Assembly: GCA_028293625.1 (NCBI GenBank)
Contig: JAQGOL010000023.1
Span: 1-32,757 of the forward strand
Origin: Chthoniobacteraceae bacterium
GTDB taxonomy: Bacteria; Verrucomicrobiota; Verrucomicrobiia; Chthoniobacterales; Chthoniobacteraceae
Direction of reading: 5' to 3'
Length of the DNA: 32,757 nucleotides
Position numbers and translations under genes: made by a program. Position 1 is the first letter of the stretch, and each line of letters begins with the position of its first letter. The notes under the pieces are model-generated. The model did no database searches. It was given only the letters and a program-made list of their open reading frames with translations, and was not told where the DNA came from. Of the stretch, positions 8,038-30,942 are shown one piece after another.

Positions 8038-9360
8038 ATGCCTTTTAGCGCGCTTGGCCTTGGAGCCAATATTTTTAAAGCAGTCCAGGAAGCTGGTTAC
8101 ACCGAACCGACCCCAATCCAGGCCGAAGCCATCCCCTTGATTCTAGCGAATCACGATCTGATTGGCATCGCGCAAACCGGCACCGGCAAGACCGCTGCCT
8201 TCGTCCTCCCGATCCTCGCGAAGATTTCCGAGATGATCGCCACACCCGGAAACCGGCGCGGCACCAGGGCATTGATCGTCGCACCGACCCGCGAGCTCGT
8301 CGTGCAGATCGAGGAAAACGTGCGCGCTTACGCCAAACATCTTCCAATCAAGATGGCGACTGTCTTCGGCGGCGTCGGCGAGCGGCCACAAATCGAGGCG
8401 CTCAGATCAGGCGCGGATATTATTGTCGCCACACCGGGCCGCCTGCTTGACCTGATTCGGCACGCTGACTTTCGCGGGCTCTCATTCCTTGTGCTCGATG
8501 AAGCGGACCGGATGCTCGACATGGGGTTTCTTCCCGCGATCCGGCAAATCGTCAAAGCGGTGCCGATCAAACGCCAGACGCTGCTTTTCTCGGCCACGCT
8601 TTCCAAGGAGATCGAGGGGCTTACCCACGAGTTTTTGCGGTCGCCTAAAAAGGTGGAGATTGGACGGCGTTCAAATCCGGCTGAAACGGTCACGCAATTT
8701 GTCTATGAAGTGCCCAAGCACTTAAAACCGGCGCTTCTGGTCCATTTGCTTGAGGATGCGAGTTACAACACGGTGCTTATCTTCTCGCGAACCAAACACG
8801 GAGCGGATCGGATCGCGCGCAAGCTGGACAGCTGCAAGATTACCAACGCGACGCTGCATTCCAACCGTTCACAAAACCAGCGGTTGCGCGCGTTGAAAGA
8901 CTTCAAGTCGGGCGCAGTCCGTGTGCTGGTCGCCACCGACATCGCGGCGCGCGGCATTGACGTTGACGGCATTTCGCATGTGGTTAATTACGATTTCCCG
9001 ATGCATTGCGAAGATTACGTGCATCGGATCGGCCGCACCGGCCGCGCCAAGGCAGTCGGCGATGCAGTCAGCTTTATCACCACGGAGGATTATTCCGCGC
9101 TACGCACCCTCGAACGTTTTATCGGCCGTGGTATCGTTCGCAAAAAGGCCGAGGGGTTTGATTACACTTCCGCGGCTCCGCCAATGGAGCCTCAGGGCGA
9201 GCGCCGGTTTATTCCCGGCCGCACTGGCCGGAGCGATTCCACGCGAAGTGGTGATTCCCGCGGAGGCGAACAGCGCCGCGGCGGAGGCGGAGGAGGACAA
9301 AGGCAAACTCCGGGTGGAGGACGCCGCAGCAGCAGCCCCGGTGATAGCCGCCGCCGGTAA
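8038..9360 (+). CDS. rhlE: DEAD-box ATP-dependent RNA helicase, RhlE-type
   Basis: 440 residues. All helicase motifs are present in order: Q motif with F3 and TPIQ (25-28), motif I AQTGTGKT (45-52), PTREL (83-87), TPGR (132-135), motif II DEAD (154-157), SAT (185-187), and in the second RecA domain RGID and HRIGRTGRA. The start FSALGLGANIFKAV is typical of RhlE. Residues from about 385 form a basic, glycine- and arginine-rich tail (RGG-like, with a run of glycines) thought in the family to bind RNA. It unwinds short RNA duplexes in ribosome assembly or RNA decay and is cytoplasmic. No partner gene is adjacent. Assignment to RhlE rather than another DEAD-box subgroup is by overall resemblance. 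Confidence 0.93.
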   Translation: MPFSALGLGANIFKAVQEAGYTEPTPIQAEAIPLILANHDLIGIAQTGTGKTAAFVLPILAKISEMIATPGNRRGTRALIVAPTRELVVQIEENVRAYAKHLPIKMATVFGGVGERPQIEALRSGADIIVATPGRLLDLIRHADFRGLSFLVLDEADRMLDMGFLPAIRQIVKAVPIKRQTLLFSATLSKEIEGLTHEFLRSPKKVEIGRRSNPAETVTQFVYEVPKHLKPALLVHLLEDASYNTVLIFSRTKHGADRIARKLDSCKITNATLHSNRSQNQRLRALKDFKSGAVRVLVATDIAARGIDVDGISHVVNYDFPMHCEDYVHRIGRTGRAKAVGDAVSFITTEDYSALRTLERFIGRGIVRKKAEGFDYTSAAPPMEPQGERRFIPGRTGRSDSTRSGDSRGGEQRRGGGGGGQRQTPGGGRRSSSPGDSRRR

Positions 9361-9416: not shown

Positions 9417-11174
9417 CTACTTTTTGGCCTGCTGCTGGTGAATGAGGATGGTGGCGGCAGGCGGGGCGTGGAAGATATGACAGCTTTGGCAGTCATATTT
9501 CACACCGCCGGTGCGGCGCTGGGCATCGGCCATTTCGTGGCTGCCGGGCCTTAGTTCAGAGCGCAGCTTGAGGGTATCCTGCGAGAGTTCGAATTTCGCC
9601 TTATCGAGCGGGCGATGGCATTCCGCGCAAAGCTTTTGCGTGGGCATCAGGATGTCGCTGGTAAGTTTGCTGGTCTTGGCCGCCCCATGGCAGGAAAGAC
9701 AGTCCATGTGCGCATGCGGAACATGGGTGAACGGACCGCGGTTAACCCAACGTTCCGCCATGTTGGTCGGCCGCACTTTCGGGGCGCCGGCACCGGCGGG
9801 CTCCATCTCATGGCACTTGGCGCATGCCGGGAAGAACGGCGTCATGTTGCTCTTTGAAGTGTTGCGCCCTTCCTTATCCGCGGGTGGATCGCCTGCAAAA
9901 AAGACACGGCGTTCGATTTCCTCGGACGTCGTCATACCACGGGACTCCATGTTATCGAGTTGCTCTTTTACCTTCTTGAGGACCTCGAGGTTGTCGCTGA
10001 TACCGCGCGCCAGGAAAGCGGCGGCGTAATGGAACCGAAGCGAATTGGGGCGGACATAGTCGCGGACCTTCTCGGTGTCGCCGTGCGGGATCTTAATCTC
10101 GGGCATATCAGGATTGATATGCAGCGAATGGCAAACCGAGCAGTGTTCCTCATACTTAACCTTCTGATAGTAGACACCGTTGCCGCCCGGTTTGTGGCAA
10201 TCGACACAGTTTAGCTTATGGCCATTGAGCGCGGGAATGTCGCCCTGCTCATGGCGCGCGTGATTGTATTTGATTTTAGCCGGATCGCGCAGGCCTGGCG
10301 CCTCATAATCAAAGGGCGGATGACCTTCCGCGTAAGTCTTGAACGGGTTGGCGTGGATCGGTTTGGGCGAAGTAATAAAACGGATCAGGCCGTCGCCAAT
10401 GTTCCGGTTCTCTGCAAGCCCGGCTGGAACAGGGCGCGGGTTGCCGGCCTGGAACGATTTGCGAGTGGCAGCCAGCTGGGTTGCGTCGTTATGACAGGAG
10501 GCGCACGTCTCGCTGCCTGGCAATTTCATCCGCTCATGGCCGACATGTTCGCGGTGGCAGCTTGTGCAGGAAGTCGCATGCACAAGCGGGATGTCATTGA
10601 GCACTCCGCGCAAGGCGATCGGCCCGGATTGCGGCTGATGCAGTCCCATCGGCTGATGACATTTCAGGCATGCCTTATCCATCAGGGAAAGGGACGAGTA
10701 AGAAATCCCTGTTTTAGCCAGCGCAAGGAGGTTATCCGAATTGAGAGTATCCTGCACCCCCTTGGCGATATTCTCCGACATCGCCCCGCCTGAAGCCGTC
10801 AGCGAATCGAGGGAAGGCAAAGTAATATCGTTGGCAGCCGCGGAGACTTTGTCTATCGAGAATCCTTTGGCATCGGTAATCAGATTACTCGCCTTATGAA
10901 ATGGGAGCACGGCGAGCAGATCGGTTTGAGCGCCTTCATGGCAAACCTGGCAATCATGCGCAAACCGGGCGTGATTTTCTGAAATCGGCCCGGTGCTTAA
11001 GTATTCCTCCTTACCCCAATAACGAAAAGTCAACGCGCCGCCGATACTTATAATGACGGCAAGGAGAAAAATGATAGCGCGCCATCGGCGCAGGTAATGC
11101 CCCTTATTGAAGTAAGTCAGGTTCCCCTTGTACTTCGCGGCGGTTTGTTTCTGGGTTGGGTCTCTACCGGGCAT
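9417..11174 (-). CDS. Membrane-anchored ten-haem cytochrome c (c3/c7-like)
   Basis: 585 residues. A basic N-terminus is followed by one membrane helix (about 32-50, AIIFLLAVIISIGGALTF) that works as an uncleaved anchor; the rest would be periplasmic. Ten CXXCH haem c sites start at 75, 169, 203, 224, 323, 345, 451, 492, 516 and 562. Additional histidines (for example HREHVGHE after the third site, NHARH, HVPHAH) can supply distal ligands, as in cytochrome c3/c7-like proteins. It should move electrons between membrane carriers and periplasmic or outer-membrane partners. It starts 12 bases after the stop of the cytochrome b-like gene, so both form one operon. The terminal donor or acceptor is not evident. 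Haem attachment would need a Ccm-type maturation system, which is not in the window. Confidence 0.9.
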   Translation of the reverse strand: MPGRDPTQKQTAAKYKGNLTYFNKGHYLRRWRAIIFLLAVIISIGGALTFRYWGKEEYLSTGPISENHARFAHDCQVCHEGAQTDLLAVLPFHKASNLITDAKGFSIDKVSAAANDITLPSLDSLTASGGAMSENIAKGVQDTLNSDNLLALAKTGISYSSLSLMDKACLKCHQPMGLHQPQSGPIALRGVLNDIPLVHATSCTSCHREHVGHERMKLPGSETCASCHNDATQLAATRKSFQAGNPRPVPAGLAENRNIGDGLIRFITSPKPIHANPFKTYAEGHPPFDYEAPGLRDPAKIKYNHARHEQGDIPALNGHKLNCVDCHKPGGNGVYYQKVKYEEHCSVCHSLHINPDMPEIKIPHGDTEKVRDYVRPNSLRFHYAAAFLARGISDNLEVLKKVKEQLDNMESRGMTTSEEIERRVFFAGDPPADKEGRNTSKSNMTPFFPACAKCHEMEPAGAGAPKVRPTNMAERWVNRGPFTHVPHAHMDCLSCHGAAKTSKLTSDILMPTQKLCAECHRPLDKAKFELSQDTLKLRSELRPGSHEMADAQRRTGGVKYDCQSCHIFHAPPAATILIHQQQAKK

Positions 11175-11186
11175 GGCGCAAAAAGT

Positions 11187-12167
11187 CTAGTGAGGAAGAA
11201 TGACAAGGTAACGCACGGCAACCCAGGCATGCCATGCGGTGTAAATCAAAAGGGCGAATGAAGTGGGCACATGGATGAATAACCAGCCGTGCAGCCAATG
11301 ATGCATGGTTGATTGGAGATCCATCAACCGGCGGTCTTCGCACCACACTTCCATATCGTTCACCTGAGACTGCCAGCGTTCGGTCACGCTTAACCGTAGT
11401 AATCTAAATGAGTCGGTCGCTTTCTTCTGGTCCGCGAGCTGGGAGCCTTTGCCGTTGGCGCTGCGCAAATAAGGAAGACATTCCCGGTCAAGAAAATCGG
11501 TAAGCATCACAATGGAAGGATCTTCATCAAGCACCACCGCCACCCCTTGCGGTTCAGCACCGGGATGCGCAACTGCCGCGCCCGCCAGCAGCGGCTTTTC
11601 GAGTTCGCTTCGGGAAGCCGCGCGCACATCGCGCAAAAGCTCAAGCGCCGATTCAAAAATCCTGGCGCGGACAAAAGGAATTTGTTCAAAAACGACTTCG
11701 CGGGCGAGACGCTCTTTCATCAGGCGCGGCATGAACTGCTGCAAAGCGAGTCCAAAGAAGCCGCTGCCCATGACAAAGCTATACAAGATAAAAAGCACAC
11801 TGCTGTGGATGCCGCCGAGATGAAAACCGCAATGGTAAAGCACGAGCGGAATGGTAAGGACTGTCAGCCAGATATGCGCCTTCAGCCAAAGCTGGACGTT
11901 GCCTAGCTTCCAACTCCGTTTTTTCTTTCGAATGCCGAGAGCTGACGCGAATAGAAAAATCAGAAAGGCGATGGTCCCAAAAACAAGTCCCAGCGGGGTT
12001 CCCCCAAATGTACGCCTCGCGGGAGGAACTTCGCCAAAGATAGCTGGAAGCTGGAATTTAAACGGCAGGCTTTGCGGATAAAAATTCGCCATGAAAAGGA
12101 GTGTGGCTCCCGCTGTCGCGGCAGCTACAAACAAAATCCAGGGAGTATGCGATCGATCAATTCTCAT
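11187..12167 (-). CDS. Cytochrome b-like multi-pass membrane protein
   Basis: 326 residues. Hydrophobic segments lie at about 10-29, 58-76, 96-113, 124-146 and 291-319. Histidines sit in or beside them in positions suited to binding b-type haem: H98, H112 and H116 in the third segment, H289/H290, H293, H299 and H313 in the last. A soluble, variable loop of roughly 140 residues separates the fourth and fifth helices. I do not recognise a named family. By architecture and by the 12-base spacing to the ten-haem cytochrome gene it is probably the membrane electron-transfer subunit (quinol side) of that complex; this is inference. The upstream region is shared with the divergent c554-like gene. 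Confidence 0.8.
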   Translation of the reverse strand: MRIDRSHTPWILFVAAATAGATLLFMANFYPQSLPFKFQLPAIFGEVPPARRTFGGTPLGLVFGTIAFLIFLFASALGIRKKKRSWKLGNVQLWLKAHIWLTVLTIPLVLYHCGFHLGGIHSSVLFILYSFVMGSGFFGLALQQFMPRLMKERLAREVVFEQIPFVRARIFESALELLRDVRAASRSELEKPLLAGAAVAHPGAEPQGVAVVLDEDPSIVMLTDFLDRECLPYLRSANGKGSQLADQKKATDSFRLLRLSVTERWQSQVNDMEVWCEDRRLMDLQSTMHHWLHGWLFIHVPTSFALLIYTAWHAWVAVRYLVILPH

Positions 12168-12465
12168 GCGGATGGATAGGCCAGGGCATTACCGAGCGGA
12201 GGGATGAACCCTCCGGCACCTTATATTTTCGACGCGGCAGGATTGGCCGTCATGAACAGAGGTTTTAGCACCGCATTCTGAGATAAGCTTATCCGGGATG
12301 ATGTCCATGAGGCGGTGTGAGCAGTATCTATGCAATTTTCTCCAGCTTCGCCAAGCGGGACTTTTCAATCCCGGGACGAAAAGAGCGGTCTCTGGCGCAA
12401 TGAGTTTCCACTTCCTGAATTTCGCGCTTCCGCCTCGGCATAAAATGTCCGTATAAACATCCGCC
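12168..12465. promoter_or_regulatory. Shared divergent control region of the cytochrome locus, with hairpin
   Basis: The 298 bases between the minus-strand cytochrome b/ten-haem operon and the plus-strand c554-like gene must hold both promoters. The one clear structure is a perfect 7-bp hairpin at 12197-12215 (cggaggg/ccctccg, loop atgaa), about 30 bases upstream of the cytochrome b-like start and therefore likely in its leader RNA. No Shine-Dalgarno sequence is obvious before that ATG. I could not assign promoter elements with confidence. Confidence 0.4.
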
Positions 12466-13599
12466 GTGGACACTTTGCTCCGATCCTTCGTTTTCCCCCT
12501 TTGTTTGCTGGTCTGCACGCTGATCGCGGCGCGTGGCGAGGAGCAGACCGCGTTTACGGTCCCGAAGTTTACCGCGTCACAAACGTGCCAATCGGCAAGC
12601 TGCCACGGTGGCGGCGTGGGCAAGGATCAGTCGGTGACGTGGGAGAAGAAGGATGTGCATTCGCGCTCGTTTGCAACGCTTTCAACCAACCGCTCGGTCC
12701 GTATCGCTGAAGCGCTTAAAATTGACGACCAGACCAAGTCGGCGCGCTGCACGGTTTGTCATTCGCCACTTTCGGCGGTCACACCCGATAAGTTTGTCAA
12801 AGGCGCCGTGCCTGATAAAGCCGTGAGTTGCGAGAGCTGCCATGGAGCGGCGGAACCGTGGCTGCGTTTTCATACCCGCACCGATGTCACCCATGAGCAA
12901 CGTGTCTCGGCGGGCTTGCGCGAGCTCGAAGAGCTATATGGCCGCGCCAATACTTGCGTCGCTTGTCATTTGAATATCGATGCGGCGCTTGTCAGTGTCG
13001 GGCATCATCCCGAGATGTTCTTCGAGCTCGATGGCCAGATGAACGCCGAGCCGCCCCATTACAAAGACAAAGGAACCTGGATCGGGCCGCGCGCCTGGTT
13101 GACAGGCCAGGCCGTCGCACTGCGGGAAATTAGTTGGAAGCTTTCCAAAAATCGTGACGACGATCTTGTCCCACGCTGGAAAGCGCTTACCTGGTTGTTA
13201 CGCAAAACCGAGTTTTCCACGCCGGCCCTTGCCGACACAGCCGAGTTCTCGGCCATCCAGTTTGCCGCGGATCGCGTTGCGCGCAACGCTTCAAAGTCTA
13301 CCTGGAGCAAGGAGAAGACCGCCAAGCAACTCCGCGATTATGTTACGCTTTCCGCTGCTTTCCGTGAAATCGACATTGCTCCGGTTGAACAACAACGCCG
13401 CGGTGAAGTAATTCTGCTGGCAATCGACCGGCTCTGGGTGGCGTTGAAAAAGGAAGGCGCCGCCAAGTCCGACAATTTCGATGCCTCCTTAAAAGTGCTC
13501 GGCGAATTATCCCGCGGCCAGGCGCAGTTTGATTCGATCAAGTTCGCCGCCGCGCTCGAGCAGCTTGAAGTTGCCCTCGAACTGATGGGCAAGCCGTAA
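12466..13599 (+). CDS. Secreted cytochrome c554-like multihaem protein
   Basis: 377 residues from a GTG start. A signal peptide (about 1-24, hydrophobic FVFPLCLLVCTLIAA then RGEE) sends it to the periplasm. Haem c sites: an unusual C-x4-CH site (C41-QSAS-C46-H47) and three standard CXXCH sites starting at C95, C122 and C164. The order and the GKPDQ-like spacing resemble the cytochrome c554/c-prime domain (PF13435). The C-terminal half (about 190-377) has no haem motif and is helical and charged, typical of relatives in planctomycetes and verrucomicrobia. It is divergent from the cytochrome b/ten-haem operon, so it may be its periplasmic redox partner. The substrate is unknown; hydroxylamine or nitrogen-oxide chemistry should not be assumed from the c554 name. 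Confidence 0.85.
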   Translation: MDTLLRSFVFPLCLLVCTLIAARGEEQTAFTVPKFTASQTCQSASCHGGGVGKDQSVTWEKKDVHSRSFATLSTNRSVRIAEALKIDDQTKSARCTVCHSPLSAVTPDKFVKGAVPDKAVSCESCHGAAEPWLRFHTRTDVTHEQRVSAGLRELEELYGRANTCVACHLNIDAALVSVGHHPEMFFELDGQMNAEPPHYKDKGTWIGPRAWLTGQAVALREISWKLSKNRDDDLVPRWKALTWLLRKTEFSTPALADTAEFSAIQFAADRVARNASKSTWSKEKTAKQLRDYVTLSAAFREIDIAPVEQQRRGEVILLAIDRLWVALKKEGAAKSDNFDASLKVLGELSRGQAQFDSIKFAAALEQLEVALELMGKP

Positions 13600-18241: not shown

Positions 18242-19675
18242 ATGAATTCCCATCTCACGCGTCGTCGTTTTCTTACTCAATCCGCAGGGCTTGCCGCCGC
18301 CACCGTTCTCGGACCGAATCTTCTTCTACGTGGACAGGAGACGGCGGGCAGACGGCTCAATCTGGCGGTGATCGGCGCGTTTGGAAAAGGCGAGGTCGAT
18401 ACGGGCAAAGTCGCGCTTGCCCACAATATTGTCGCGCTGGTGGACGTGGACAGCAAAAGGCTCGAATCGGCGGGCAAAGCGCTTTCGAAAAAATACACCG
18501 ATGCCGGACGCGAAGTCCCGCAGGCGCCAAGGTTGTTTGCCGATTTTCGAAAGATGTTCGACCAGATGGCCGGCGGCATTGATGGCGTCATCGTCTCGAC
18601 TCCCGATCACACGCATTTCCCGGCGGCGATGTGGGCGATCAAAAACAAAAAGCACGTCTGCGTGCAAAAGCCGCTCTGCAATACGATCTGGGAAATCCGT
18701 GAACTGCATCAGGCGGCAAAGCAGGCTGGCGTTGTCACGCAGATGGGAAATCAGGGGCGCACCATGGAGGGGCAGCGAGTGGCAAAAGAATGGATCGACC
18801 AGGGCGCAATCGGCACTTTGCAGGAGATCCGGCTTTGGACCAACCGGCCAATCTGGCCGCAAGGCGCGCTGGTTAAATCCGCCGTGGAAAAACCGGCGAC
18901 CCTTGAATGGGATCTCTGGCTTGCGACCGAGGCGGAGGAACCGTATTTCGAATTCGATCTCCCGCCCGGCGCAGCAAAGGGCAAGCAGGTGCATCCATTC
19001 AATTGGCGCGGCTGGTGGCAGTTTGGCTCCGGCGCACTCGGCGATATGGGCTGCCATTTGATGGATGCCGCATTCAGCATCCTCGGGCAGCAGATTCCAG
19101 TTAAGATCGAGGTGGAGAGCTCCAAGGTGACCGATCTGACCGCGCCGGTCTGGACCCGGCTCACTTATCACTTCGCCGCCACCGACAAACACGGCCCGCT
19201 CAAAGTGACCTGGCACGATGGCGTCGGCGATGATGGCAAACCGAACAAGCCCGAGCGCGATGAACGCCTCCCAAAAGCGGCTTTCGACAAGTCGACCAGC
19301 GGCATGATGTTCATCGGCAGCGAAGGCGTGCTTTTTGACGAGGAATCGTATTGCGCGAATCCGGTCATCTACCCTGAGGAACGTTTTGCCGACGTGAAAA
19401 AGAGCGTGGCGGACGGCCGGATCAAAAAGACCGAGCCGCGCAGTTCCGCTCCCGATAATCCGCAGGGAGAATGGGCCAACTGCATTCTGAACGGAGGCAC
19501 GCCAAGTTCGAACTTTGATTACGCGGCGCCGCTCACTGAGTTTGTATCACTTGGCAATCTGGCGATTCGCTCCGGACAGACCATCCAATGGGATGCAAAG
19601 GCGATGCGCGTCACAAACAACGACGCCGCCAATCAATTCATCAAACGCGCCTCTTATCGGCCGGGCTGGCTCTGA
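18242..19675 (+). CDS. Tat-exported Gfo/Idh/MocA-family oxidoreductase
   Basis: 477 residues. The N-terminus TRRRFLTQ plus a hydrophobic alanine-rich stretch is a twin-arginine signal, so the enzyme is exported folded with its nucleotide cofactor. Residues 38-160 form a Rossmann domain (LNLAVIGAFGKGEVD, then IVALVDVDSKRL). VQKPL stands where family members have EKP, and QMGNQGR follows. A C-terminal substrate domain carries GDMGCHLMD with the conserved histidine. Such enzymes oxidise or reduce a sugar or inositol with tightly bound NAD(P). Members with Tat signals are common in Verrucomicrobiota and Planctomycetota and are often beside DUF1080 genes, as here (the DUF1080 fusion starts 65 bases downstream). 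Substrate unknown. Confidence 0.92.
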   Translation: MNSHLTRRRFLTQSAGLAAATVLGPNLLLRGQETAGRRLNLAVIGAFGKGEVDTGKVALAHNIVALVDVDSKRLESAGKALSKKYTDAGREVPQAPRLFADFRKMFDQMAGGIDGVIVSTPDHTHFPAAMWAIKNKKHVCVQKPLCNTIWEIRELHQAAKQAGVVTQMGNQGRTMEGQRVAKEWIDQGAIGTLQEIRLWTNRPIWPQGALVKSAVEKPATLEWDLWLATEAEEPYFEFDLPPGAAKGKQVHPFNWRGWWQFGSGALGDMGCHLMDAAFSILGQQIPVKIEVESSKVTDLTAPVWTRLTYHFAATDKHGPLKVTWHDGVGDDGKPNKPERDERLPKAAFDKSTSGMMFIGSEGVLFDEESYCANPVIYPEERFADVKKSVADGRIKKTEPRSSAPDNPQGEWANCILNGGTPSSNFDYAAPLTEFVSLGNLAIRSGQTIQWDAKAMRVTNNDAANQFIKRASYRPGWL

Positions 19676-19739
19676 TCAGCCTTCGTTAAACTCCATTGCC
19701 CGGAAGCAACTCGTTGCTTCCGGCCACCCCTCTTTGCCC

Positions 19740-22700
19740 ATGAAACTGCGCATCTTACTCTCTGCTTTTTTCCTCACGCTCTCCATCGCAGGCGCGGCTC
19801 CGCTCCGGCTTTTTGATGATGCATCGCTTGCCGGCTGGGAGGGCGACACGAAAGTCTGGCGCGTGCGCGACGGCACGATTGTAGGCGGCTCGATGGAAGG
19901 CAATCCACGCAACGAATTTCTTTCCACACGGAAAAGCTACCGGAATTTTTCGCTTCGCCTTGAATACAAACTGACCGGCACGGAGGGCTTCGTAAACAGC
20001 GGCGTCCAGTTTCGCAGCAGGCACGTTGTCCAGCCGCCCAATGAGATGTCCGGTTATCAGGCGGATATCGGGGCCGGTTTTTCCGGATGCCTCTACGACG
20101 AGTCGCGCCGCAATAAAGTGCTCGCTGCTGCCGATAAAGCGCTCATTGCGAGCGCCGAAAAGCCCGGAGAATGGAACAGTTACGAGATCCGCGCGGAAGG
20201 CGCCCGGATCCGGCTTTTCGTCAATGGCCAGCTCACGGTTGATTATAAAGAAACCGAGCCCGGCATTGAACAGGAAGGGCTGATCGCGCTGCAAATCCAC
20301 GGCAATAACAAAGCCGAAGTCGCGTTTCGGAACATCGTGCTCGACGATTTAAGCACCGACATCGTTCCCGGACAGGCTGAGATTCTAAGCCGGCTGGGCG
20401 AAATCAAGCCCGCTGCGGTCCCTCCCCCTTTTACCGCCGGCAAAGCGCGCTTCGAGGAAAACGAAATGGTGGTGCTGGCCGGACAGGCGAACTTTGTAAG
20501 GGAACAAAAAGCCGCGGAACTGGAGGCGCGCCTCGCAACAGGGTTCGCCTCCAAAAAGCCGCACTTTCGCTCGATGGCATGGGAAGGCGACACGGTTTAC
20601 GAGCAATGGCGCGATCTCAATTTCGGTTCATGGACCAGCCAGTTGGAAGCCACGGGCGCCACGATGATCATTGCCCAATTCGGGCAGATTGAGGCGCTTG
20701 ATGGGGTTGTCCGCCTGCCTGAGTTCATCGCCTCTTATCAACATCTGCTCGACCAGTTCGCCGCGCGCACCCAGCGCCTTGTTCTCGTCTCGCCGATGCC
20801 GTTTGAAAAATCGCCATTGCCGCATGCGCCCGACCTGACCTTGCGCAATGCCGAGGTCCGCACGTACGCCGAGGCGATTCGCGGTATTGCAAAACTGCGG
20901 GGTGCGGTTTACGTCGATCTTTTCACACCGCTGGCGGCCATGGAGAACTCAGGGCCATCGCGCCTGACTGACAACGGGATGCATCTCAATGCCGCCGGAT
21001 TGCGCGTCGTGGCGGAGATCATTGCCCAACAACTCGGGGCCGAGCCCAAACCGGCCATCGATCTCGAGGATTTAAAAACGGCCATTGCCGAAAAGAACCG
21101 GCTTTGGTTTGACTGCTGGCGGCCGGCGAACTGGTCATTTGTATATGGTGACCGCGTTTCGCAGTTGTTTGGGAAAGCAATCGGCGACGCGCCATCGTTG
21201 CGCGGCGCGTTTGAAGCACATCAACCGCTCATTGCCGCGCTCGACTCGCGCATCCACGCTCTCGCCTCGGGCCAAACCGTGGTGCCAATCCCGGCGCCGG
21301 AACCGCCCGTCCAGCCGGAAACCGAGCAACTGACACCGGAAGCCGAGCTTGCGAGCTTTACCGTTGCCGACGGTTATCAGGTCAACCTGTTTGCTTCAGA
21401 AAGGGACGGCATTGTAAAACCAACGCAGATTACCTGGGACGAAAAAGGGAGGCTTTATGTCGCCTGCTCGCCAACCTATCCGCACATGATTCCCGGCACC
21501 AAACCGGGCGATTTCATCCTGATCTGCGAAGACACCGATGGCGACGGGCGCGCCGATAAATTCCAGCGCTTTGCCGAAGGGCTCGGAATGGTCCAGGGTC
21601 TCGAAGTCGGCGATGGCGGACTTTATGTCTGCGATTTTGATCAATTGGTCCATCTGCGCGACACCAATGGCGACGGCAAATCGGATGAGCGCCGCGTGAT
21701 TTTTTCCGGGTTCGGCACCGGGGATACCCATCAGCTTATCAACTCAATCACGCACGGACCGGATGGCAGCCTCTGGTTTACCCAGGGCCTTCACGCATTC
21801 TCGCGGATCGAAACCCCGTGGGGACTCGCACGGCTCGACAAATCGGGTGTCTGGCGGATGCGTCCACGCACGCTGCGGCTCGACGGGTTTTTCAACGGGG
21901 CAAAAGCTGCCCACAACTGCTGGGGCGTCGCATTTGACGATTACAATCAGGTCTTCCACAAATCCGGTGACAGGCCCGATGGCTATTACACGGTGCCCGG
22001 GATGGTGCGCCTTTCCAATCCGGATGAATACCATCCGATCGGGTCGCTCTTTCAGACCAACCCGAAAACCACCTCGCTCGATATCATCGGCACGCGCGGG
22101 TTGCCGGAGGAAGCACAGGGATGCGCCGTAATCGCCGGATTCATGGGCAGCGTCATGGAGCTCCACCGCTTTAAAGACGATGGCGCGGGCTTTAAAACCG
22201 AGCAACTGCCCAAGCTTCTTAAGACGGCCGAGAGCGCGTTTCGTCCGGTTGATGTGAGTGTGGGGCCCGATGGCGCCATCTACGTGGCCGACTGGTTTAA
22301 CCGCGTCATCGGCCATTACCAGGCAAGCTATCGCGATCCGCAACGCGACAAATCCCATGGCCGCATCTGGCGGATCAGCGCGAAAGGGATCCCGCCGATC
22401 AAACAGCCCGATCTTGCCTCCATGAAACCGGGCGCGCTGCTTGATCAGCTTCGGTCTCCGGAACGCTGGACACGCTACCAGGCCAAGCGCCTCCTCTTTG
22501 ACGCGCCAACGCCGGAAGTTGAGAAGGCGGCCGACAGCTGGGTGGACGGACTCAAGCCGGCAGATCCTGAGTATGAACGGTTGCTGCTTGAAGTCATCGG
22601 CGTTTTTGAAGCGCACGAGATGACGCGGCCTGAGCTGCTTGTGAAGCTGCTTGCGGCCAAAGATCCGAGGGTTCGCGCTTACGGAACCCGGGTGACAGGC

Positions 22701-23384
22701 AACTGGGCCGATCAACTTCCCGACCCGCTGGCTTTGCTGAGTAAAAGCATCGCGGACGAAAATCCACGGGTGCGTTTGGAAGCAATCATCGCGTCGAGCT
22801 ATGTGCAGAAGCCCGAGGCCGCCGAAGTGGCTATCCAGGCCATTGATAAACCGCGCGACCGATTTATCGACTATGCATTGGCGCAAAGCCTGCGCGCGCT
22901 TCAGCCGCAATGGCAGCCCGCGCTCGCCACCGGCCGGTTGACCTTTGGAAACAATCCTGGCCGGCTTGCTTATGTCCGCAAGCTGGCCGATGCGGCTCCC
23001 GCGGCGCCGAGTCCCGGCAAAGTGATCTACGAAACCCTTTGTTTGAACTGCCATCAGCCTGATGGAAAAGGGCTTCCGGGAATCTATCCGCCATTGGTTG
23101 GCAGCGAATGGGTCGGTGGCGAAAAACCGGCATTGATCCGGATGTTACTCCACGGCCTGACCGGACCGATCACGGTCGCCGGCCAGCAGTATGGCGTCCA
23201 GAATCCGCCGCTTTCAATGCCGCCCAGCGGACTGACTGATCCCCAAATTGCCGCGGTCCTGAGCTATATTCGCGGCAACTTCGGTCATCAGGCCGCGCCG
23301 GTGAGTGTGGCTGAGGTGGAATCGATCCGCGGCCAGAATAAGGAACGCGCGACCCTTTGGAGCGTGGACGAAATCGGCAGGTAA
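19740..23384 (+). CDS. DUF1080-SGNH-propeller-HEAT-cytochrome c fusion (PVC type)
   Basis: 1214 residues from the ATG at 19740; the frame is open further upstream but overlaps the preceding gene. Signal peptide 1-19, then: a DUF1080/3-keto-disaccharide hydrolase-like jelly roll (about 22-205, LRLFDDASLAGWEG); an SGNH-like module (about 235-440); a PVC 'membrane-bound dehydrogenase' propeller (about 530-880, with DTDGDGRADKFQ and DTNGDGKSDERR calcium-like loops); HEAT-type helices (about 890-1070); and a class I cytochrome c with CLNCH at 1101-1105 and probable axial M1160. This joins sugar binding, glycoside or ester chemistry and an electron outlet in one periplasmic chain. In the SGNH module the usual serine is replaced by alanine (GQAN, A250), while D411 and H415 remain, so hydrolase activity there is doubtful. 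Exact substrate unknown. Confidence 0.9.
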   Translation: MKLRILLSAFFLTLSIAGAAPLRLFDDASLAGWEGDTKVWRVRDGTIVGGSMEGNPRNEFLSTRKSYRNFSLRLEYKLTGTEGFVNSGVQFRSRHVVQPPNEMSGYQADIGAGFSGCLYDESRRNKVLAAADKALIASAEKPGEWNSYEIRAEGARIRLFVNGQLTVDYKETEPGIEQEGLIALQIHGNNKAEVAFRNIVLDDLSTDIVPGQAEILSRLGEIKPAAVPPPFTAGKARFEENEMVVLAGQANFVREQKAAELEARLATGFASKKPHFRSMAWEGDTVYEQWRDLNFGSWTSQLEATGATMIIAQFGQIEALDGVVRLPEFIASYQHLLDQFAARTQRLVLVSPMPFEKSPLPHAPDLTLRNAEVRTYAEAIRGIAKLRGAVYVDLFTPLAAMENSGPSRLTDNGMHLNAAGLRVVAEIIAQQLGAEPKPAIDLEDLKTAIAEKNRLWFDCWRPANWSFVYGDRVSQLFGKAIGDAPSLRGAFEAHQPLIAALDSRIHALASGQTVVPIPAPEPPVQPETEQLTPEAELASFTVADGYQVNLFASERDGIVKPTQITWDEKGRLYVACSPTYPHMIPGTKPGDFILICEDTDGDGRADKFQRFAEGLGMVQGLEVGDGGLYVCDFDQLVHLRDTNGDGKSDERRVIFSGFGTGDTHQLINSITHGPDGSLWFTQGLHAFSRIETPWGLARLDKSGVWRMRPRTLRLDGFFNGAKAAHNCWGVAFDDYNQVFHKSGDRPDGYYTVPGMVRLSNPDEYHPIGSLFQTNPKTTSLDIIGTRGLPEEAQGCAVIAGFMGSVMELHRFKDDGAGFKTEQLPKLLKTAESAFRPVDVSVGPDGAIYVADWFNRVIGHYQASYRDPQRDKSHGRIWRISAKGIPPIKQPDLASMKPGALLDQLRSPERWTRYQAKRLLFDAPTPEVEKAADSWVDGLKPADPEYERLLLEVIGVFEAHEMTRPELLVKLLAAKDPRVRAYGTRVTGNWADQLPDPLALLSKSIADENPRVRLEAIIASSYVQKPEAAEVAIQAIDKPRDRFIDYALAQSLRALQPQWQPALATGRLTFGNNPGRLAYVRKLADAAPAAPSPGKVIYETLCLNCHQPDGKGLPGIYPPLVGSEWVGGEKPALIRMLLHGLTGPITVAGQQYGVQNPPLSMPPSGLTDPQIAAVLSYIRGNFGHQAAPVSVAEVESIRGQNKERATLWSVDEIGR

Positions 23385-27302: not shown

Positions 27303-28592
27303 GTGGAGAATATTTACGACGTAGCCATTATTGGAGGCGGACCCGCTGGAAGCACCGCGGCGACATTGCTCGCCCGGGCCGGGCGCTCGGTTGTGCTTTT
27401 GGAACGGGAAAAATTCCCGCGTTTTCACATCGGCGAATCGCTTTTGCCTTACAGCATGTCGATCTTTGAGCGCCTCGGGATTCGCGATCGGCTCGACGCG
27501 CTTTTTCTAAAAAAACATGGCGCCGAATTGGCCACTGCGTGCGGTGAACGCAACGTGAAGTTTTTCTTTAAGAACGGGTTTCGCCTCGACCACGCCTCTT
27601 CGTACCAGGTTGAGCGCGCGACCTTCGACAAGCTCCTGCTTGATCACGCAAAAGAAAATGGCGTCGAGGTCCGCGAGGAAGTGACCGTCGCAAAAGTCCA
27701 TTTTGGGGAGCAAAACGTTTCGTTGTCGGTACGAAGCGCAGCCGGCGAGGGCGAAGTCAATGCCCGCTATCTCATCGATGCAAGCGGACGCAATACGATT
27801 GTCGGTTCGCAGCTCAAATTGAAGAAAAGTTACGCCACTCTTCAAAAATTTTCCGTCTTCGCCCATTACGAAAATGTGCTGCGTGACCCGGGCCCAGACG
27901 CCACCCTGACCCGGATGGTGCGTGGTCATGACCGCTGGTTTTGGATGATCCCCCTGGGCGCAACCCGGATGAGCATTGGGCTTGTGATGGATATCGAGGA
28001 CTTCAAGGCGCTTCGAAGCAGCCCCGAGAAGGCGCTCACAGAGGCCATTGCGGAACAGCCAATCATCCAATCCCGGATGGCGGCCGCCGAGCGCGTCTCG
28101 GAAGTCTATTCCACGGGCGATTATTCGTACCGCAACTCCCAATTCACCGGGGAACGCTGGCTGCTAGCCGGAGATGCGGCCGGTTTCATTGACCCGGTTT
28201 TCAGCACCGGCGTGCATCTTGCGCTCGTCTCGGGAGAACACGCCGCCGACGCGCTGAATGTCATTCTCGATCACCCAAGTCGGCGGGCAAAGCTCTTTAA
28301 GGCATACGAAAAAAGACTCAACCGGGTCATGGATCTTTATCTTCGGTTTGTGAACGCGTGGTATCGCCATGAGTTTGCCGAAGTGCTCTCTCAACCGACC
28401 GAACGCTTCAACCTGCCCGGCGCCATCAACGCGGTGCTCGCCGGGAATTTCGACGGCGGCTTTGCCATCTGGTGGCGGATGCAGCTCTTCTACCTGGTGG
28501 TTTACCTTCAAAAATTCTATCCGCTCTGCCCGCGGCTTGGATTGCGTCCGCAAGCCGCCAATCCCGTCCCGGAACCGACGTGCGTCCCCTGA
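27303..28592 (+). CDS. Halogenase-like FAD-dependent oxidoreductase
   Basis: 429 residues from a GTG start. FAD-binding GxGxxG motif at the N-terminus (DVAIIGGGPAGSTAATLLARAG), the segment FHIGESLLPYS typical of tryptophan/phenol halogenases and geranylgeranyl reductase relatives, and W-F-W-M-I-P at 212-217, which matches the WxWxIP motif used to recognise flavin-dependent halogenases. The C-terminal GDAAGFIDPVFSTGVHLA stretch is also typical. The motif supports halogenase fold, not proof of halogenation: non-halogenating relatives share it. It likely acts on an ACP-bound or lipid substrate given its neighbours (ACP, acyltransferase, deacetylase). The gene is 54 bases upstream of the acyltransferase. 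Confidence 0.85.
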   Translation: MENIYDVAIIGGGPAGSTAATLLARAGRSVVLLEREKFPRFHIGESLLPYSMSIFERLGIRDRLDALFLKKHGAELATACGERNVKFFFKNGFRLDHASSYQVERATFDKLLLDHAKENGVEVREEVTVAKVHFGEQNVSLSVRSAAGEGEVNARYLIDASGRNTIVGSQLKLKKSYATLQKFSVFAHYENVLRDPGPDATLTRMVRGHDRWFWMIPLGATRMSIGLVMDIEDFKALRSSPEKALTEAIAEQPIIQSRMAAAERVSEVYSTGDYSYRNSQFTGERWLLAGDAAGFIDPVFSTGVHLALVSGEHAADALNVILDHPSRRAKLFKAYEKRLNRVMDLYLRFVNAWYRHEFAEVLSQPTERFNLPGAINAVLAGNFDGGFAIWWRMQLFYLVVYLQKFYPLCPRLGLRPQAANPVPEPTCVP

Positions 28593-29751: not shown

Positions 29752-30942
29752 ATGAGCACTCCACGCGCACAGGTCACCAAGACGGATGCCAAGCGGAACA
29801 AATGGCCCAAAGTGCGGCAAATTACCCGAGCAACCGGCGTAACCGCGTGGCGCGTTGACTCTCGAATCAACGGAATCGGCGAACGTTTGTTCTACAAATC
29901 TGCCGCCGAAGCGGACACCAAGGCGGAGCAGTTACGCGTTAAGCGGCTCAATGAGGGCAAAGCCAGCGTCGTTTTTTCCGAGTCGCATCGGATCATGGCT
30001 GAACGGTGCATCGCCAAACTTGCCGAAGTCGGCGCTGATCTGGATCAAGCTACCGATTTCTTTTTGAAACACACTCGCCCCAAGGCAGGCGCCCGGACTG
30101 TCAAAATCCTGGCTGCGGAGTTTTTGAAGGCCAAACAGTTGGCTGGCCGCCGCGCGAATTATCTGAGTGTCCAAAAATACGTTCTCGGAGTATTCGAGCG
30201 AACGTTTGGAGAACGGGAGGTTCACACGATCGGTCATCAAGAGATTTCGGATTGGATGCACGCAAAGGAATGGGGGCTCCGGACCCGTGACAATTACCGG
30301 CGCGACCTGGGCAACCTCTTCAACTTCGCGATCAAACATAATTACGCGACCGTGAACCCACTGGAGAAAATCGAGGTCGCCACCCTGGACGACGCGCCAC
30401 CTGGCATCCTCACCGTTGAGCAGTGCTCAACTCTACTCTTTACCGCAGCCGAGTTCGAGGAAGGCGTGATGCTCCCCTATGTGGCGATAGGTCTCTTCTG
30501 CGGGCTGCGAGCGTCCGAGCTGGCAGCGCTGGATTGGGCCGAGGTCTCGCTCCCGGAGCGAACCGTTGAAGTGACAGCCGCCAAAGCCAAGACTCGGACC
30601 CGGCGAAACGTGACGATCTCCGATAACTTGGCGGCGTGGTTGGCACCGCATAATCGTCTAAACGGCCCGATTGCTCCCCAGGACGATCTCGCATATACGT
30701 GGGAACGCTTACGCAAGGCAGCCGGTCTCCGGATAAAGAAAACCCCGAACGGTCAAACAGGCATCCCTTGGCCAAAGAACGCAATGCGCCACAGCTTCGC
30801 TTCGTATCACGTCGCCCACCATAAGAATGCTCCCCTCACCTCTCTCGAGATGGGCCACGACAATCCTAATCAGCTTTTTTCCGCTTACCGGGAGCTCGTG
30901 AAGCCGAAGGCTGCCGCGGCTTTTTGGGAGCTTGCCCCATAA
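29752..30942 (+). CDS. int: Tyrosine-recombinase integrase of a tRNA-targeted island
   Basis: 396 residues. An N-terminal arm-binding part (basic, about 1-100), a core SAM-like domain (about 112-205, including RDNYRRDLGNLFNFAI), and the C-terminal catalytic domain. Catalytic residues are R253 (GLRASEL), R346 in the RHS box, H369 (MGHDN) and the nucleophile Y379 (SAYREL). The box normally written HxLRH reads N343-AMRH, so the first histidine is replaced by asparagine, a substitution I believe occurs in relatives. It should integrate and excise the island at the tRNA-Gln. The last 77 bases overlap the convergent XRE gene on the other strand. The repeated 'agtgccaa' (29722-29750 region) just upstream may be arm-type sites; this is a guess. 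Confidence 0.92.
   Translation: MSTPRAQVTKTDAKRNKWPKVRQITRATGVTAWRVDSRINGIGERLFYKSAAEADTKAEQLRVKRLNEGKASVVFSESHRIMAERCIAKLAEVGADLDQATDFFLKHTRPKAGARTVKILAAEFLKAKQLAGRRANYLSVQKYVLGVFERTFGEREVHTIGHQEISDWMHAKEWGLRTRDNYRRDLGNLFNFAIKHNYATVNPLEKIEVATLDDAPPGILTVEQCSTLLFTAAEFEEGVMLPYVAIGLFCGLRASELAALDWAEVSLPERTVEVTAAKAKTRTRRNVTISDNLAAWLAPHNRLNGPIAPQDDLAYTWERLRKAAGLRIKKTPNGQTGIPWPKNAMRHSFASYHVAHHKNAPLTSLEMGHDNPNQLFSAYRELVKPKAAAAFWELAP

Follow-up and report, generated by a model that had tools for sequence, protein, structure and literature searches.

A decahaem cytochrome, a predicted cytochrome b and a tetrahaem cytochrome in a Chthoniobacteraceae contig: the probable inner part of a trans-envelope electron conduit

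The window genes and their haem ligands

We analysed a contig of a Chthoniobacteraceae bacterium (JAQGOL010000023.1, assembly GCA_028293625.1; the window in the following, i.e. the whole contig of 32,757 bp) in which two multihaem c-type cytochromes and a membrane protein are encoded side by side. An earlier reading made from the letters alone (the sequence-only reading) had located these genes at 9417-13599, coordinates that proved correct, and had taken them for a conduit from quinol to the periplasm. Judged by comparison with related genomes, the trio is probably the inner-membrane and periplasmic section of a trans-envelope conduit that would carry electrons from NAD(P)H outward to an extracellular acceptor. 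We use the working labels DECA, CYTB and TETRA for the window genes and GIANT, BARREL, HbpS, cNMP-FeS (short form), NuoG-cNMP (long form), NuoEF and FNR for partners encoded elsewhere. The locus contains:

9417-11174, minus strand: DECA, a putative inner-membrane-anchored periplasmic decahaem c-type cytochrome of 585 aa with 10 CXXCH sites and 10 invariant candidate distal histidines
11187-12167, minus strand: CYTB, a membrane protein of 326 aa, predicted to be a transmembrane cytochrome b with two b haems (H98-x13-H112 and H299-x13-H313)
12168-12465, no strand: the divergent CYTB/TETRA intergenic region of 298 bp, which presumably holds both promoters
12466-13599, plus strand: TETRA, an exported tetrahaem cytochrome of the c554 type (PF13435) of 377 aa, in which site 1 is CX4CH and the C-terminal half is without haem sites

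Genes were called by greedy selection of the longest open reading frames. Some CYTB, DECA and cNMP-FeS genes were missed in this way and were recovered by a six-frame search. The gap between CYTB and DECA amounts to 12 bp (15 bp if the CYTB stop codon is excluded). As the sequence-only reading had it, ten CXXCH sites are found on an anchored protein: DECA carries exactly ten of them and a single N-terminal hydrophobic segment (residues 33-51). Its description of the divergent partner was likewise borne out, TETRA having three CXXCH sites and one CX4CH site (CQSASCH, residues 41-47). A chance origin of the haem sites was ruled out by a control with 100 order-1 Markov sequences derived from the window, which gave at most one CXXCH per open stretch of at least 60 codons.

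In a Pfam scan of the window proteins multihaem domains were found in DECA and a c554-type domain in TETRA; CYTB remained without a match. TETRA reached 34.2 bits with PF13435, the broad cytochrome c554 domain family (gathering cut-off 20.8). That it is the Nitrosomonas c554 itself was rejected, given 28.6 bits with NF043010 compared to 400 needed. With TIGR01904 it obtained 19.3 bits, below the cut-off of 27 bits; as this sub-cut-off match illustrates, CX4CH is an uncommon yet known form of haem site.

Candidate haem ligands were obtained from alignments of 29 of 33 CYTB and 22 of 32 DECA sequences (near-identical, partial or divergent rows omitted) and of all 18 TETRA sequences (alignment A5). 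The ten haem sites of DECA and exactly ten other histidines were invariant (22/22 aligned), the latter being sufficient for one distal ligand per haem. For TETRA the same was found for all four sites, including CX4CH, and exactly four other histidines (18/18). CYTB contains exactly four invariant histidines (H98, H112, H299 and H313; 29/29), which form two HX13H pairs. Such a ligand pattern would be expected for two stacked b haems in a transmembrane protein. The ligand counts were tested on sequences outside their derivation, the DECA and CYTB of Sphingobium, which are 25-28% identical over the aligned parts. On two Sphingobium plasmids DECA retains 19 and 20 of the 20 histidines and CYTB all four, and on three sphingomonad plasmids TETRA retains all eight ligands.

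At the threshold used, hydropathy analysis assigned three membrane segments to the window CYTB and as many as five to several homologues. Five helices are therefore predicted for the window protein too, and the loop of about 140 residues preceding the last helix would be cytoplasmic by the positive-inside rule. In two other loci (L065:9191-10567 and L066:8984-10297) this loop of CYTB is extended by an insert of over 100 residues rich in Pro and Ala. A profile search for homologues of CYTB in the PDB returned coiled-coil noise only. Concerning DECA, the class-level copies (L070, L072, L074, L076 and L077) possess a Cys-rich stretch of about 100 residues ahead of the membrane helix, on the presumed cytoplasmic side; at this place the DECA of Sphingobium herbicidovorans shows sub-threshold FHA/YscD-like matches.

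Partner genes in Verrucomicrobiota and on plasmids

The gene neighbourhood was surveyed in 57 genomes (the window's own and 56 relatives) and in 288 genomes of the phylum. DECA adjoins CYTB in 23 of the 23 CYTB-positive genomes, the own one included, with gaps of 4-48 bp. TETRA is divergent and at most 2 kb away in 14 of them; in the other nine it lies farther away or on a separate contig, and in one of these (G001) CYTB sits on a contig of 5.5 kb. The expectation of the sequence-only reading that the genes are kept together therefore holds throughout for DECA and CYTB and in part for TETRA. That the trio forms one electron-transfer locus is supported by the adjacency of DECA and CYTB, the proximity of TETRA and the two-b-haem ligand pattern of CYTB.

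The limits of the locus as first drawn were too narrow, since its outer half resides on other contigs of the same genome. One-cluster versions exist in seven loci from the same family (L059, L062) and the same class (L070, L072, L074, L076, L077), where DECA and CYTB are joined by BARREL, GIANT and cytoplasmic redox proteins, as well as by an HbpS-like protein in six of the seven and by TETRA in six of the seven. In the window's own genome GIANT is found at C38:278923-282939 and BARREL at C24:29079-31385 with HbpS beside it; NuoG-cNMP and NuoEF are on C9 at about 170-175 kb. These partner genes are at least 29 kb away from either end of contigs of 234-382 kb.

The five parts are nested in the same 24 of the 57 genomes, with DECA present in 24, CYTB in 23, TETRA in 24, GIANT in 22 and BARREL in 23. 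Mismatches occur in G033 (76% complete; DECA without CYTB), G031 (86% complete; without GIANT) and G029 (84% complete, 6% contamination; without GIANT or BARREL). Fisher tests of the co-occurrence, which ignore kinship, gave p values of 1e-13 to 1e-16. Within a single genus (g4, nine genomes) all five parts are present in six genomes and none in three. Across the 288 phylum genomes, nearly complete matches to GIANT and to BARREL (the latter in one or two pieces) were obtained in an identical set of nine. All nine belong to the 14 genomes in which CYTB is matched strongly (E below 1e-50); eight of the nine had supplied rows to the search profiles, G052 had not. Weak CYTB profile matches in 8 of the 288 genomes (E 4e-4 to 5e-9) and GIANT matches confined to LVIVD repeats or to one short stretch (28 of 288) were not counted as present.

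GIANT comprises 1299-1323 aa (five uncut copies) with ten invariant CXXCH sites and an LVIVD domain. Counts for GIANT and BARREL were taken over 13 rows (alignment A2 with 13 of 13 rows and A3 with 13 of 16, one truncated and two short matches being omitted). An N-terminal hydrophobic segment is seen in 10 of the 13 GIANT rows. In the haem region 12 further histidines are conserved even with Sphingobium added, sufficient for bis-His haems, and on the three sphingomonad plasmids GIANT retains 22 of 25 histidines and all 20 cysteines. Its closest curated model is ExtM (71.8 and 72.8 bits vs a cut-off of 800, over short stretches), and the haem region gives weak profile matches to eight-haem nitrite reductases (E about 5e-4). 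BARREL has 736-816 aa, is without a Pfam match where scanned and ends in Tyr in 13/13 rows with Leu or Phe at position -3. Such an ending is the usual outer-membrane signal. Many of the examined loci also encode an HbpS-like protein close to BARREL or GIANT.

These outer parts might alternatively belong to an enzyme system, in which GIANT or TETRA is a reductase for one specific substrate, for instance a peroxide or an oxyanion, and acts on the outer membrane or beyond it. The ExtM and nitrite reductase matches of GIANT, the c554 likeness of TETRA and the HbpS-like neighbour all point in this direction. However, all ten GIANT sites are of the CXXCH type, the 12 extra conserved histidines allow bis-His haems, and BARREL is without an NCBIfam match at E up to 10 (L070) or 0.1 (L104), the inclusion of an ExtI model in this library being unchecked. 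We thus consider such an enzyme system unlikely.

Outside the phylum GIANT was detected at a coverage of at least 80% in 13 of 72,556 plasmid records (12 Sphingobium, 1 Sphingopyxis; 40-44% identity); two more records match only in its C-terminal, LVIVD-bearing third. BARREL and TETRA are located on the same 13 plasmids, CYTB and DECA on the same 12 Sphingobium ones. Several of these plasmids are almost identical siblings, and they should not be counted as 12 independent cases. On the S. herbicidovorans plasmid pMSHV, which is typed as conjugative, TETRA, HbpS, BARREL, GIANT and two small genes follow each other and the order continues on the opposite strand with a phosphoesterase, DECA, CYTB and an oxidoreductase-cNMP-FeS fusion. 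The phosphoesterase is calcineurin-like in both Sphingobium plasmids examined and is named CpdA, a cyclic AMP phosphodiesterase, in one record; no relative of it was found among the called genes of the Verrucomicrobiota loci. The sphingomonad TETRA has four CXXCH sites in addition to CX4CH, i.e. five haem sites (L141:16036-17400, L142:20675-22114, L143:20373-21764). Judged by its patchy distribution, the cassette may have been transferred between Verrucomicrobiota and sphingomonads.

Electron source and proposed path

A further companion of CYTB bears on the question of where the electrons come from. In every one of the 23 CYTB-positive genomes there is one type of cyclic-nucleotide-binding (cNMP) 4Fe-4S protein, the long form in 12 and the short form in 11, with none having both among the matches listed. 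Both forms combine cyclic-nucleotide-binding with 4Fe-4S domains; the long form is distinguished by a NuoG-like front end. For the 34 CYTB-negative genomes the best match among those listed had an E value of 1e-22 and concerned the NuoG-like part. In 10 of the 11 genomes the short form lies 4-87 bp upstream of CYTB; the copy in G008, confirmed to be of the short type by reading it, is on a different contig from CYTB. Ten class and phylum loci likewise have a short-form Fe-S protein directly upstream of CYTB. PF13247 is matched by the short-form protein with E 2.3e-10 (L070) and 2.9e-11 (L141), and below the cut-off in L046. A motif resembling a phosphate-binding cassette, defined by a pattern of our own, occurs in 17 of 20 short forms and in 8 of 9 long ones; L105, the copy belonging to the window's own genome, fails the strict pattern.

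Both forms are tied to modules that oxidise NAD(P)H. The long form adjoins a NuoE-NuoF fusion in 9/9 loci examined, and the window's own genome encodes a fused NuoEF together with a NuoG-like/cNMP/4Fe-4S fusion protein, unlinked to CYTB. A flavin/NAD/2Fe-2S reductase lies at most 3 kb from CYTB in 9 of 10 class- and phylum-level short-form loci. On the two Sphingobium plasmids a pyridine-nucleotide oxidoreductase is fused with cNMP and 4Fe-4S domains and is encoded beside the conduit genes. These are three unrelated kinds of NAD(P)H-oxidising modules: NuoEF, the FAD/NAD/2Fe-2S reductase and the fused pyridine-nucleotide oxidoreductase.

Since the constant companion of CYTB is a cNMP-FeS protein that is in many genomes linked to NuoEF or to a reductase, or fused to an oxidoreductase, we favour, with moderate confidence, an input from NAD(P)H via 4Fe-4S centres rather than from quinol. 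From the quinol-to-periplasm conduit with a histidine-rich multi-pass subunit that the sequence-only reading had envisaged, the b-type partner is retained in the ligand pattern of CYTB, while quinol as electron source found no support. In a quinol-driven conduit CYTB would have to oxidise quinol, in the manner of the cytochrome b subunits found in bc1 and hydrogenase-1. In agreement with this, HX13H pairs are also found in bc1-type cytochrome b (PMC5566968), and PF01292 is matched below its threshold by CYTB from two Sphingobium plasmids (22.1 and 24.7 bits, cut-off 30.1). With a 4Fe-4S protein as the constant companion and often the upstream neighbour of CYTB we regard a quinol dehydrogenase as improbable, although some reactivity with quinones is possible.

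For the NAD(P)H-fed conduit, the parts, their ligand patterns, their co-occurrence and their co-location were read directly from the sequences; the topology, order, direction, acceptor and gating given in the following are predictions. The path would begin with cytoplasmic oxidation of NAD(P)H, a step that would fall to the fused NuoEF protein in the window's own genome. The electrons would then be passed to the cyclic-nucleotide-binding 4Fe-4S protein, there fused to the NuoG-like front end, and the two b haems of CYTB would carry them from the cytoplasmic to the periplasmic face. From CYTB they would enter the ten haems of the anchored DECA and subsequently reach GIANT, with or without TETRA as a shuttle. 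GIANT, with its ten haems and LVIVD domain, would sit in or on the outer-membrane BARREL and provide the exit from the cell. The system may serve as an electron sink for surplus NADH, possibly ligand-gated; candidate acceptors would be metal oxides or the quinones of humic matter. As outward electrons descend the membrane potential, the chain would conserve no energy.

A wider proposal would be a conduit that is gated by a ligand, fed by NAD(P)H and independent of the quinone pool. The three unrelated NAD(P)H modules would plug into it, its cNMP domains would gate the export, and its cassette would have crossed between the phyla, lying in sphingomonads on megaplasmids beside the calcineurin-like phosphoesterase that is named CpdA in one record. 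Taken as a whole, this is tentative and in our view rather doubtful.

Several observations weigh against the outward, NAD(P)H-fed conduit. Regarding the structures, the AlphaFold model of CYTB (3 sequences) has a predicted local distance difference test (pLDDT) score of 52; it puts helices roughly where they were expected, but its quality does not allow a fold comparison. That of TETRA (2 sequences) has a score of 42, too poor for a fold search. In profile searches BARREL matched neither Pfam nor the PDB. Its 24 candidate strands are not separated from the 20.9 ± 3.3 found in shuffled sequences, and its lag-2 autocorrelation is -0.02 vs -0.08 ± 0.04 in shuffles. Five phylum genomes (G128, G174, G175, G178 and G207; loci L067-L069, L071 and L075) have CYTB without GIANT or BARREL. 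All five encode cNMP-FeS together with CYTB, and in four the locus additionally contains DECA and FNR. On the Sphingopyxis plasmid the outer four genes are present, GIANT, BARREL and TETRA included, and CYTB and DECA were undetected on the plasmid, the chromosome not having been searched. Within the genomes surveyed the inner part thus occurs without the outer one. An outer part without CYTB was encountered in two cases only, the incomplete G033, which retains DECA, and a single plasmid from outside the phylum. The matched TETRA stretch holds one in-frame TAA in each of two genomes (G013:C59:27603-28622 and G028:C9:34375-35394). For the short form, a search for FNR in the 11 genomes gave one match at E 1e-40 (G052, far from CYTB) and the rest no better than E 1e-5. 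At the loci of family and order relatives this search, in which neighbours were not individually annotated, found no FNR-type reductase orthologue.

The flow could also be reversed. With the same parts, GIANT would be the entry point for electrons donated outside the cell, for instance by Fe(II) or reduced humics, and NAD+ or the quinone pool would be their destination. A similar hypothesis has been published for PCC3 and PCC4, putative porin-cytochrome complexes known from sequence in genomes of iron oxidisers, in which an extracellular donor feeds the quinone pool (PMC5566968), and the NAD(P)H modules alone do not fix the direction. Reduction of NAD+ would, however, oppose the membrane potential, and the energy input it should require is known from none of the parts found. 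We therefore hold inward flow to be improbable and keep to the outward direction.

Relation to described systems and implications

The membrane protein of PCC3 and PCC4 has five helices, of which the third and the fifth carry WX3HX13H and the fourth carries SGXXG (PMC5566968). Exactly two WX3HX13H motifs were found in 28 of the 29 CYTB sequences (three in the other one), SGXXG in 27 and both in 26. The statement of the sequence-only reading that the combination is not a named complex has to be modified accordingly: CYTB carries the signature of the PCC3/PCC4 inner-membrane protein, and this class is itself known from sequence alone.

PCC4 comprises a porin, tetra-, penta- and decahaem cytochromes and other redox proteins, with no extracellular cytochrome described in the part of the article covered; in its subgroup II a PF13247 Fe-S protein is located upstream of the membrane protein (PMC5566968). 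The present system resembles it in the membrane-protein signature, which is also common to PCC3, and in having tetrahaem and decahaem cytochromes; BARREL is a candidate for the porin. It shares with subgroup II the PF13247 Fe-S protein upstream of CYTB, though not in the window's own genome, where the two are unlinked. As far as a comparison by description goes, it differs in GIANT with its ten haems and LVIVD domain, in the NAD(P)H modules and in the cyclic-nucleotide domains. Furthermore, no pentahaem cytochrome was called in the Verrucomicrobiota loci with BARREL or GIANT. The extracellular multihaem cytochrome missing from the covered description of PCC4 would here be GIANT, whose surface location is only predicted. 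Either GIANT or DECA could be the counterpart of the PCC4 decahaem cytochrome, and the modules found here may match the other redox genes of PCC4. Near a divergent version of the locus, L067:16858-18864 encodes a 668-aa protein with five CXXCH sites that might relate to the PCC4 pentahaem cytochrome.

PCC3 combines a porin, extracellular and periplasmic multihaem cytochromes and a membrane protein of about 300 aa with the same motifs, a plan that BARREL and GIANT, as candidate porin and extracellular cytochrome, would follow, but its cytochromes have medians of 34 and 21 haem sites and low-complexity repeats (PMC5566968), compared to 10 and 10 here. Described on both sides from sequence and compared by description only, the system is close enough to be called a predicted variant of the PCC3/PCC4 kind.

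MtrCAB/OmcA of Shewanella consists of a periplasmic decahaem cytochrome, a barrel and a surface decahaem cytochrome. The predicted plan of the present system is the same, but DECA stays far below the cut-offs of the MtrA/DmsE-type model (29.0 vs 192.2 bits) and the OmcA/MtrC model (19.0 vs 209.3 bits), such that membership was rejected. Freshwater verrucomicrobial clusters (PMC5615132) come from the same phylum and combine a porin with periplasmic and sometimes extracellular multihaem cytochromes. Their periplasmic cytochrome differs in having eight conserved haem sites, and a cyclic-nucleotide Fe-S or NADH module is unmentioned in the part of that article covered; from the descriptions, an overlap of some of these clusters with the present system is possible.

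The Ext cluster for selenite and tellurite features a porin, multihaem cytochromes and a b-type cytochrome, and GIANT is distantly similar to ExtM. Geobacter ExtP and ExtO have been described as homologues of cytochrome b and the Rieske protein, the core of the bc complex (PMC5877670, PMC6148476), whereas CYTB and cNMP-FeS are without a match to this core. Membership in the Ext operon was rejected, as ExtM gave 72 bits against its cut-off of 800 for GIANT, ExtO and ExtN reach DECA only at E 3 and 3.7, no Ext protein scored above cut-off in the window's own genome, and the window CYTB has no NCBIfam match.

HX13H pairs on helices 3 and 5 and an NAD(P)H-fed transmembrane electron flow are also features of the FRD/NADPH oxidase domain (PF01794). 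This domain was, however, not among the 18 Pfam families matched by the 29 CYTB sequences at E up to 10, of which the commonest was DUF4405 (15 of 29, best E 0.0096), and the reductase is here a separate Fe-S protein or flavoprotein. Alternative complex III was rejected as well, the match between DECA and ActA reaching only E 5e-4 over a haem-motif stretch. The best PDB match of the DECA profile was 6f0k_A (E 1.9e-5, 60 positions). In the literature searched, which left Sphingobium papers and most subscription journals outside its reach and covered articles in part, this gene set was undescribed.

Elsewhere in the window, 8038-9360 encodes an RhlE-like RNA helicase downstream of DECA, of which an 84% identical copy lies beside DECA in the relative G001 (L045). 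A 1289-aa frame at 19515-23384 combines 3-keto-disaccharide hydrolase, GDSL lipase, DUF7133, HEAT and one cytochrome c domain. A tryptophan halogenase-like flavoprotein is encoded at 27303-28592 and a recombinase of the phage integrase family at 29752-30942, close to the contig end.

Well-studied cell-surface conduits are mostly fed from the quinone pool. New elements in the present system are the probable input from NAD(P)H instead of quinol, the cyclic-nucleotide domains, the LVIVD decahaem cytochrome and the carriage on plasmids across phyla. It offers a candidate input mechanism for the uncharacterised PCC3/PCC4 predictions. That the set is shared by two phyla and carried by plasmids points to a mobile trait, for which Sphingobium herbicidovorans (locus tags B6S01_RS18410 to RS18455) is a cultivated host. 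If the cyclic-nucleotide domain on the entry protein does act as a gate, electron export would be switchable. A wire fed directly by NAD(P)H, if it exists, would couple extracellular electron transfer to the cytoplasmic redox balance and would provide soil and lake bacteria with an electron sink.

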